A stretch of 39,091 nucleotides of DNA from Verrucomicrobiota bacterium. GTDB lineage: Bacteria; Verrucomicrobiota; Verrucomicrobiia; Verrucomicrobiales; DEV007. The stretch's first letter is position 1, and every line of letters starts with the position of its first letter. The translations under genes and the position numbers were made by a program. Location: assembly GCA_024277195.1 (NCBI GenBank), contig JAJRVS010000123.1, positions 1 to 39,091 on the forward strand, read 5' to 3'. Shown one piece after another: positions 1-1,755 of the stretch. The notes under the pieces were generated by a model. The model did no database searches. It was not told the DNA's origin and saw nothing but the letters and a program-made list of their open reading frames with translations.

Positions 1-2
1 CA

Positions 3-62
3 CAGCACATTCCAGCTCTCAAGCTGAAGCTACTCCTTCTGGAGCTAGGCCTAGTTGCCTAG
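3..62 (+). CDS. Leucine-rich leader peptide of leuA (partial, 5' end outside window)
   Basis: An open frame enters from the left edge and ends at a TAG at 60-62. Its last 14 codons (18-59) read L K L K L L L L E L G L V A, so 8 of 14 are leucine, and three of the eight are CTA. No ATG is visible in the window; ATT at 9-11 is an unlikely start, so the true start is probably just upstream. A run of leucine codons ending about 30 nt before an intrinsic terminator and 125 nt before leuA is the classic arrangement of a leu operon attenuator, where ribosome stalling for lack of charged tRNA-Leu prevents terminator formation. The peptide itself would have no other role. Attenuation here is inferred from sequence layout only. 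Confidence 0.7.
   Translation, partial: QHIPALKLKLLLLELGLVA
45..62 (+). promoter_or_regulatory. Possible pause hairpin in leuA leader
   Basis: CTAGGC (45-50) can pair with GCCTAG (57-62) over the loop CTAGTT. The stem covers the last leucine codons and the stop codon of the leader peptide, the place where a pause hairpin lies in amino-acid attenuators. A weak alternative pairing that could act as antiterminator is GCAG (80-83) with CTGC (105-108), extended by GTT (71-73) with AAC (109-111) across a bulge. Both pairings were found by eye and not folded computationally. Confidence 0.4.
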
Positions 63-94
63 TATCTTTTGTTGTCCTCGCAGTTTGTTCGCTT

Positions 95-138
95 ATTCGA
101 TTCCCTGCAACGGACGCAGAGAATCGAATTTTTATTTT
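95..138 (+). terminator. Intrinsic terminator / attenuator before leuA
   Basis: ATTCGATTC (95-103) pairs with GAATCGAAT (121-129), and inside it CTGC (105-108) pairs with GCAG (116-119), leaving one C/A mismatch (104/120) and a 7-nt loop. The stem is followed at once by TTTTTATTTT (129-138). This is a strong rho-independent terminator shape placed 48 nt before the leuA start. It could in principle end an upstream gene, but the leucine-codon run just before it makes an attenuator of leuA the better reading. Confidence 0.8.
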
Positions 139-186: not shown

Positions 187-1755
187 ATGTCAGACCGATT
201 GACCATATTTGATACCACCTTGCGCGACGGCGAACAATGTCCGGGCGCATCCATGGATCCACGCGAAAAAATGGAGGTCGCTCGTCAGCTCGCCTGTCTG
301 AACGTAGACGTGATCGAAGCCGGATTCCCAGTGATCAGTGACGGTGATTTTGCCTCTGTCGAACAAATCGCCACGGAAGTTAAAGGCCCAATCATCGCTG
401 GCCTGGCTCGTTGTATCAAAAAGGATATCGAAGCGGCCGGCGCAGCGGTCAAACCTGCGGCCGAGAGAGGACGTATCCACGTATTTTTGGCTACTTCAAA
501 AATTCATCGTGAGCATAAGTTGAAAAAAGCCCATGACGAAATTGTGCGTTTGGCGGTGGAAAGCGTGACTTATGCCAAGAGTTTTGTGCAGGACGTGGAG
601 TTTTCTCCCGAGGATGCTTCGCGCACCGAACCTGAGTTCCTCGCCGAAGTGACTCAGGCAGTGATCGCTGCCGGAGCCACCACGGTCAATATCCCGGATA
701 CGGTTGGATTTGCCGTGCCACAGACATACGCAGACATGATCCGTTACCTTTTTGACAACGTCAATAATATCGACGACGCGGTTATTTCTGTGCACTGCCA
801 CAACGACCTGGGTTTGGCGGTGGCCAACTCCCTGGCCGCGGTGCAGGCAGGTGCGCGTCAGATCGAAGGCACCATTAATGGCATCGGCGAACGTGCCGGC
901 AACGCGGCTTTGGAAGAAGTGATCATGGCGATCAAAACTCGTTCTGATATTTTCGTCGATGTGCATACTGACATCGACGTTTCGGAAATTGTTAAAACTT
1001 CGCGTTTGGTCAGTCGCATGTGCAGTTTGCAGGTGCAGCGCAACAAAGCCATCGTCGGTGAGAATGCTTTTGCCCATGGAGCTGGCATTCATCAGGATGG
1101 CATTATCAAAAAACGAGAGACCTACGAGATCATGGATCCCAAGGAAATCGGCTGGGGTGAAACCGAGTTGCCATTGACCAAACACAGCGGACGCCACGCA
1201 GTGGCTTTGCGTTTGCAGGCTTTGAGCTACACCCTCACCGATGCCGAGATTGATGATATTTTCAGCCGTTTCAAAGACATCGGTGATCGCAAAAAATTCG
1301 TTTATGACGATGATTTGGCTGCTTTGGTGGATGACTCCCTGACCACGGTCAAGGAATCCTATTCACTTGAATATTTGCATGTCAGCTCCGGTACCACCGC
1401 GATACCGACTGCCACGGTGCAGTTGAAACGCGGCGAAGAGACGCTTGAGGACTCCAGTCCTGGCAACGGTGCGGTGGATGCTTCGATGAAGGCCATCGAC
1501 CGTATTTTGAAAAAACGCGGCCACTTGGTCGAATACAATGTCAGTGCCACTTCCGGAGGCAAGGACGCTTTGGGAGAAGTCAGCCTGAAAGTCGATTTTG
1601 GCGATGGCAACCTTATCTCAGGAAAAGGTGCCAGCACCGATGTCATCGAAGCCAGCGCGCGTGCTTACCTCAATGCCGTCAATCGGGTCTCAGCTCTTGA
1701 AGAACAAAGTGGCGGTATAGACAAATCCGCAGCGGCCGCCGAGGGGACTATTTAG
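187..1755 (+). CDS. leuA: 2-isopropylmalate synthase
   Basis: Cytosolic enzyme condensing acetyl-CoA with 2-oxoisovalerate, the first committed step of leucine biosynthesis. The 522-residue protein opens with FDTTLRDGEQCPG, the start of the HMGL-like TIM barrel with the catalytic Arg-Asp pair, and carries the metal-binding HCHNDLG and the GIGERAGNAALEE motif. After about residue 400 comes the LeuA allosteric regulatory domain (around residues 400-500), which normally senses leucine. The length fits the usual 510-520 residues of bacterial LeuA. The ATG at 187 has no Shine-Dalgarno; it is preceded by CACACTACT. Regulation is probably double: feedback by leucine through the C-terminal domain, and transcription attenuation through the leader and hairpin at 1-138. 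No other leu gene follows; recJ comes next after 152 nt. Confidence 0.96.
   Translation: MSDRLTIFDTTLRDGEQCPGASMDPREKMEVARQLACLNVDVIEAGFPVISDGDFASVEQIATEVKGPIIAGLARCIKKDIEAAGAAVKPAAERGRIHVFLATSKIHREHKLKKAHDEIVRLAVESVTYAKSFVQDVEFSPEDASRTEPEFLAEVTQAVIAAGATTVNIPDTVGFAVPQTYADMIRYLFDNVNNIDDAVISVHCHNDLGLAVANSLAAVQAGARQIEGTINGIGERAGNAALEEVIMAIKTRSDIFVDVHTDIDVSEIVKTSRLVSRMCSLQVQRNKAIVGENAFAHGAGIHQDGIIKKRETYEIMDPKEIGWGETELPLTKHSGRHAVALRLQALSYTLTDAEIDDIFSRFKDIGDRKKFVYDDDLAALVDDSLTTVKESYSLEYLHVSSGTTAIPTATVQLKRGEETLEDSSPGNGAVDASMKAIDRILKKRGHLVEYNVSATSGGKDALGEVSLKVDFGDGNLISGKGASTDVIEASARAYLNAVNRVSALEEQSGGIDKSAAAAEGTI

Follow-up and report, generated by a model that had tools for sequence, protein, structure and literature searches.

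Ribosome-mediated attenuation is a textbook subject for enteric bacteria and has been described in few phyla. The window analysed here (39,091 nt of a Verrucomicrobiota genome, the beginning of contig G000:C51) opens with a leucine-rich reading frame and a hairpin in front of leuA, which raises the question of whether leucine biosynthesis in this bacterium is governed by an attenuator. Judging from the sequence, we consider it very probable that the element is a ribosome-mediated transcription attenuator that ties leuA expression to charged leucyl-tRNA. An earlier reading of the window (the original prediction) had proposed a leucine attenuator at this place; the full leader, its conservation and the terminator support that interpretation, with the leucine response as a predicted property.

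The leader frame and the gene behind it

The features of the locus, in window coordinates, are these:

1..62 (+), leuL-type leader ORF, of which the last 62 nt lie inside the window; 23 codons, peptide MRSTQHIPALKLKLLLLELGLVA, then stop
18..53 (+), leucine control codons; 8 Leu, 3 of them the rare CTA; core CTA CTC CTT CTG GAG CTA GGC CTA at 30–53
45..62 (+), pause-type hairpin over the stop codon; CTAGGC/GCCTAG, 45–50/57–62
68..83 (+), proposed antiterminator 5' arm (segment 2), inside a block (65–92) that is nearly invariant in the genus
95..129 (+), intrinsic terminator stem-loop; outer stem 95–103/121–129 (9 bp), inner stem 105–108/116–119 (4 bp)
105..120 (+), proposed antiterminator 3' arm (segment 3), common to the apical part of the terminator
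129..138 (+), terminator T tract, TTTTTATTTT
187..1755 (+), leuA, 2-isopropylmalate synthase of the TIGR00973 / PRK00915 type (type 1), the regulated gene in the proposed switch

Read in frame 3, positions 18–59 run CTC AAG CTG AAG CTA CTC CTT CTG GAG CTA GGC CTA GTT GCC and are followed by TAG at 60–62, exactly the 14 codons with eight leucines and three CTA that had been counted in the original prediction. Such a density is rare: at least eight leucines in 14 codons has P ~4e-5 per 14-codon stretch, given that leucine accounts for 11.1% of the codons in the window's genes. CTA is the rarest leucine codon in those genes (5.8% of Leu codons), and the probability of at least three CTA among eight leucines is ~0.009.

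The window starts within this frame, and its left-hand neighbour was obtained from the end of contig G000:C370 of the same genome, which overlaps the beginning of C51 over 356 nt at 97% identity and puts the leader ATG 10 nt before the first base of the window. Gene order supports joining these contigs, since a hydrolase-like gene, the leader, leuA and recJ follow one another in the same way in two congeners (G001 and G002, each a different species). The remaining ~3% of difference in the overlap resembles strain variation or an assembly bubble. The hydrolase-like gene has the same direction as the leader and stops ~285 nt 5' of the leader ATG; thus the Leu-rich frame is not the 3' end of an ordinary gene, the outcome that the original prediction had named as fatal to it, and the leader is a free-standing ORF of 23 codons. 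No clear Shine–Dalgarno sequence was found before the leader ATG. A candidate promoter, TCGACW-N16-TANNCT, lies ~20 nt 5' of the ATG; it was judged by eye from three aligned sequences, and a consensus scan gave no match.

The leuA gene starts 124 nt 3' of the leader stop codon and is followed by recJ, not by leuBCD. No Shine–Dalgarno sequence was found at its start, hence there is nothing there for a hairpin to mask. Its product is the sole LeuA found in the genome, with 73% and 69% identity to the nearest named LeuA records, which point to the Verrucomicrobiota as the most probable phylum, and no type-2 leuA was found in this genome.

The terminator, its competitor and their conservation

Folding of positions 1–186, which had been suggested as a check, gave –47.8 kcal/mol (z = –4.15, with 0 shuffles equally stable). 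The predicted hairpin, with its two stems and T tract, is present at 95–129, and this terminator alone is more stable than 1000 of 1000 shuffles and lies below all shuffles in all three species. The pause-type stem that had been noticed over the stop codon is likewise present, and it is kept in form, by weaker GGG/CCC-like equivalents, in relatives. The T tract begins with five Ts in the window and with six in contig C370 and both congeners (129–138 compared with the minus strand of L003).

As to the antiterminator, the original prediction had paired GCAG/GTT (71–83) with CTGCAAC (105–111). Pairing between these regions is possible, but the helix is longer than was proposed and joins 68–83 with 105–120 (68–72/116–120, 74–77/112–115 and 80–83/105–108). 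We folded the RNA 3' of the ribosome with the ribosome set at successive codons. With the ribosome on the Leu codons and the polymerase before the terminator 3' arm, the antiterminator fold was obtained in three of three species (–12.9 to –14.9 kcal/mol); when the terminator 3' arm (121–129) was added, the terminator, at about –15 kcal/mol, won narrowly in two of the three, the energies of the two structures being nearly equal. Taken alone, the antiterminator pairing is only weakly better than shuffles in the window clade (p = 0.14, 0.06 and 0.07). Its 5' arm begins 5 nt after the leader stop codon, so that a ribosome at the stop covers the start of the arm while a ribosome stalled at 30–53 leaves it free, a geometry that fits stalling at the Leu codons as originally suggested. 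A further, protector pairing of the leader start with segment 2 looked promising in G001, yet was no better than shuffles in any species, and was rejected.

From these elements we infer a promoter, leader translation, ribosome stalling and a response to leucine, which would be connected as follows. Transcription would start just 5' of the 23-codon leader. When leucine is ample, the ribosome would reach the stop codon (60–62) and cover the start of segment 2 (68–72 and beyond), the terminator at 95–129 would form, and RNA polymerase would halt in the T tract. Under leucine shortage, the ribosome would stall on the CTA CTC CTT CTG ... CTA run (30–53) and leave segment 2 (68–83) free to pair with segment 3 (105–120) before the 3' arm of the terminator is made, allowing read-through into leuA.

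The leaders of the two congeners, MRQQGHIPAQLLNLLLLELGLDA and MRHTRHIPANLLNLLLLGLGLDA, each ending in a stop codon, occur at the same place before the same leuA, and both species retain the hairpin and T tract. The genus retains the start ATG, the Leu run and the stop codon of the leader, while other leader codons vary. Among the three species, the ~84 nt from stop codon to T tract are 95–96% identical, as against 75–85% for the leader ORF, 49–76% between T tract and leuA, and only 39–51% at the fourfold sites of leuA. Conservation of a non-coding block amid near-saturated synonymous change indicates strong purifying selection on that block, which comprises segment 2 (68–83) and the terminator with its T tract and extends slightly further, to 147. 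The arms of the antiterminator are too conserved for compensatory changes to be visible within the genus. Right after the T tract, the genus shows no variation in AGCGAAT (141–147), a potential pairing partner of TTCGCT (88–93).

Leucine-rich leaders across the phylum

Two kinds of leuA occur in the phylum, type 1 (PRK00915/TIGR00973) and type 2 (PRK03739), whose proteins are ~27% identical. We surveyed the regions 5' of 153 leuA genes for Leu-rich ORFs, defined by at least 5 Leu in 8 residues at the position expected of a leader. Such an ORF precedes 63% of the type-2 and 31% of the type-1 genes in the survey; as controls, the reverse strand gave 0% (type 2) and 2% (type 1), and dinucleotide shuffles gave 2% and 0%, respectively. 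The leucine-codon leader before leuA is thus apparently widespread in Verrucomicrobiota, as far as sequence can indicate. In a genus of small genomes of the same order (possibly Akkermansia, by inference; L009–L013, L115–L139), which lay outside the survey sample, a Leu-rich leader is absent before the type-1 leuA. Among named records, Leu-rich leaders were found in, among others, the Verrucomicrobia MAGs L034, L035 and L039 and in the Planctomycetota L060 and L073; an obvious terminator with T tract is present in all of these except L034, and in the two Planctomycetota the leader ORF is followed by a strong terminator.

A segment complementary to the 5' arm of the terminator (p ≤ 0.05) occurs upstream of it in 10 of the 17 type-1 leaders that carry a terminator. 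In six distant loci (L251, L256, L257, L264, L276, L277) the leader ORF itself contains the antiterminator arm, directly after the Leu run, where it encodes AAVG-like residues, and the paired arms covary: GGTGGG/CCCACC in L256, L264 and L277, GATGGG/CCCATC in L257 and GGCGGG/CCCGCC in L276. This covariation of an arm inside the ORF with the terminator arm supports the same logic in a different layout. The comparison of relatives that had been proposed gave conserved Leu-rich frames, in the congeners and in distant members alike, together with compensatory changes in the distant type-1 leaders though not within the genus. The second outcome named as fatal to the original prediction, relatives with neither Leu codons nor hairpin, did not occur, as both congeners keep the two. 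No single consensus structure covers all leaders: RNAalifold by clade returned local hairpins only, because the leaders differ between clades.

The type-2 leaders have a different character. A strict terminator detector found few T-tract terminators among them, and intrinsic termination is therefore not claimed for this group. One type-2 clade (L187–L189, L193, L196, L206–L208, L214, L215, L219, L229, L154, L160, L166, L170) is marked by a peptide ending in LRLT(Q/L/R)G and by strong conservation of the block that follows the stop codon; its hairpin lacks a T tract and covaries, with changes on both sides of the pairs (e.g. GCCGT/ACGGC, GTCGT/ACGAC and GCTGC/GCAGC). Since the T tract is mostly absent, and since the hairpin in one clade has these two-sided changes, the mechanism of type-2 leaders may differ from that proposed for the window, perhaps resembling the actinobacterial LEU element (PMC1262725).

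A nearly identical 21-nt leader end, CTAGGGYTGGCCNCCCRYTRR with the stop codon at its close, stands before both type-1 and type-2 leuA. It precedes the type-1 genes of L007, L114, L173 and, judged by eye, L034, and the type-2 genes of 12 loci, e.g. L190 and L226; between L007 and L226, which both belong to the window's family and have different leuA types, 1 of the 21 bases differs. Either the leader outlived a replacement of the gene, or leaders were exchanged, or the stem and the codons impose the sequence. Tentatively, and with somewhat more doubt than belief, we suggest that the leucine-codon leader may be an old leuA module in Verrucomicrobiota that outlasted replacement of its gene, with a terminator-free and undescribed mechanism in the type-2 lineages.

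Alternative explanations and known attenuators

The window taken by itself could be read more simply, with the Leu-rich frame as a fortuitous ORF or the tail of some ordinary gene and the hairpin as no more than the terminator of the upstream gene; the window does begin inside the frame, and the upstream gene does point the same way. We regard this as very improbable: that gene ends well before the leader ATG and, in G002, has a separate inverted repeat directly after it, conservation of the block far exceeds that of synonymous sites, and highly divergent leuA genes are repeatedly preceded by Leu-rich leaders, which are few in the controls. The conserved and structured non-coding part might also suggest direct sensing of leucine or tRNA, by a riboswitch or a T-box, with the ORF incidental. 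This is the least credible of the readings considered, as no Rfam family, T-box and riboswitch families included, matches at any useful score, the conserved RNA consists of the terminator and its competitor only, so that an aptamer would hardly fit, and it is at the codon level that the Leu run is conserved.

Somewhat less remote, and still unlikely, is a leader that works mainly through translation or Rho, as has been proposed for some actinobacterial leaders without a terminator, the hairpin being secondary. Many type-2 leaders in the same order are conserved Leu-rich peptides without an obvious T tract, and the actinobacterial LEU element before leuA combines a Leu-run leader peptide with a pseudoknot by a mechanism that is unclear (PMC1262725). 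In the window clade, however, all three species have kept a strong hairpin and its T tract unchanged although the synonymous sites of their leuA have diverged, and the leuA start lacks a Shine–Dalgarno sequence that could be masked. Transcription attenuation by a translating ribosome remains the reading that we prefer for the window.

The classical leu, trp and his attenuators have the same geometry of control codons, stop and competing arm as is proposed for the window. A His-codon search in the window's genome returned 27 places, with a single simple repeat predominating; His-codon runs or CAY repeats occur at G000:C190:8967–9023 and ~10 other places. The leuL attenuator of Salmonella and E. 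coli (RF00512) shares with the window a short leader ORF, a Leu run with the rare CUA, a stop codon beside a competing RNA arm (a proposed one in the window) and an intrinsic terminator followed by leuA, and differs in that the window's leader peptide is another one, its host belongs to the Verrucomicrobiota, and its leuA is followed by recJ rather than leuBCD. In Salmonella, CUA is the control codon of the leu attenuator, and changing CUA to CUG lowered its sensitivity (PMC1183508). Rfam 15 gave no match in the window clade or at 18 other loci; RF00512 (Leu_leader) in particular was not found at the gathering threshold in the congeners and the 18 other loci, nor in contig C370 with permissive filters. 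A weak antisense match to BSnc140, at 25.9 bits where the gathering score is 126, was rejected.

Outside the Proteobacteria, the actinobacterial LEU element (PMC1262725) resembles the window in that a putative leader peptide containing a Leu run is encoded directly 5' of leuA; it folds into a pseudoknot whose base stem reaches the leuA Shine–Dalgarno box, and has no terminator, whereas the window has a clear one, and it is the type-2 leaders of the window's order that may be nearer to it. The leader-peptide attenuators of Firmicutes (the leucine-rich ilv leader of S. aureus, PMC5794164; hisS/hisZ, PMC2965389) have their control codons in a leader ORF, as here, with genes and sequences that differ from those of the window. 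A 2010 survey added the Firmicutes to the Proteobacteria and Actinobacteria, in which alone such systems had previously been known (PMC2965389). Full-text searches of open-licence papers turned up no description of leuA attenuation by a leader peptide in Verrucomicrobiota or Planctomycetota, in agreement with the original prediction, which knew of no described case; this is not proof, as an earlier report is possible, e.g. in a subscription journal. As far as searched, a leucine attenuator of leuA is apparently new for the Verrucomicrobiota.

The sequence evidence places leucine attenuation in the Verrucomicrobiota broadly and in some Planctomycetota, in at least two architectures, with the antiterminator arm after the stop codon in the window's genus and inside the leader ORF in more distant classes. 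It can now be tested whether a leader passes down together with its gene, moves between unlike leuA genes or has arisen several times. The leaders also yield annotations of short ORFs and candidate RNA families that Rfam lacks, and their codons would provide a readout of leucine status.
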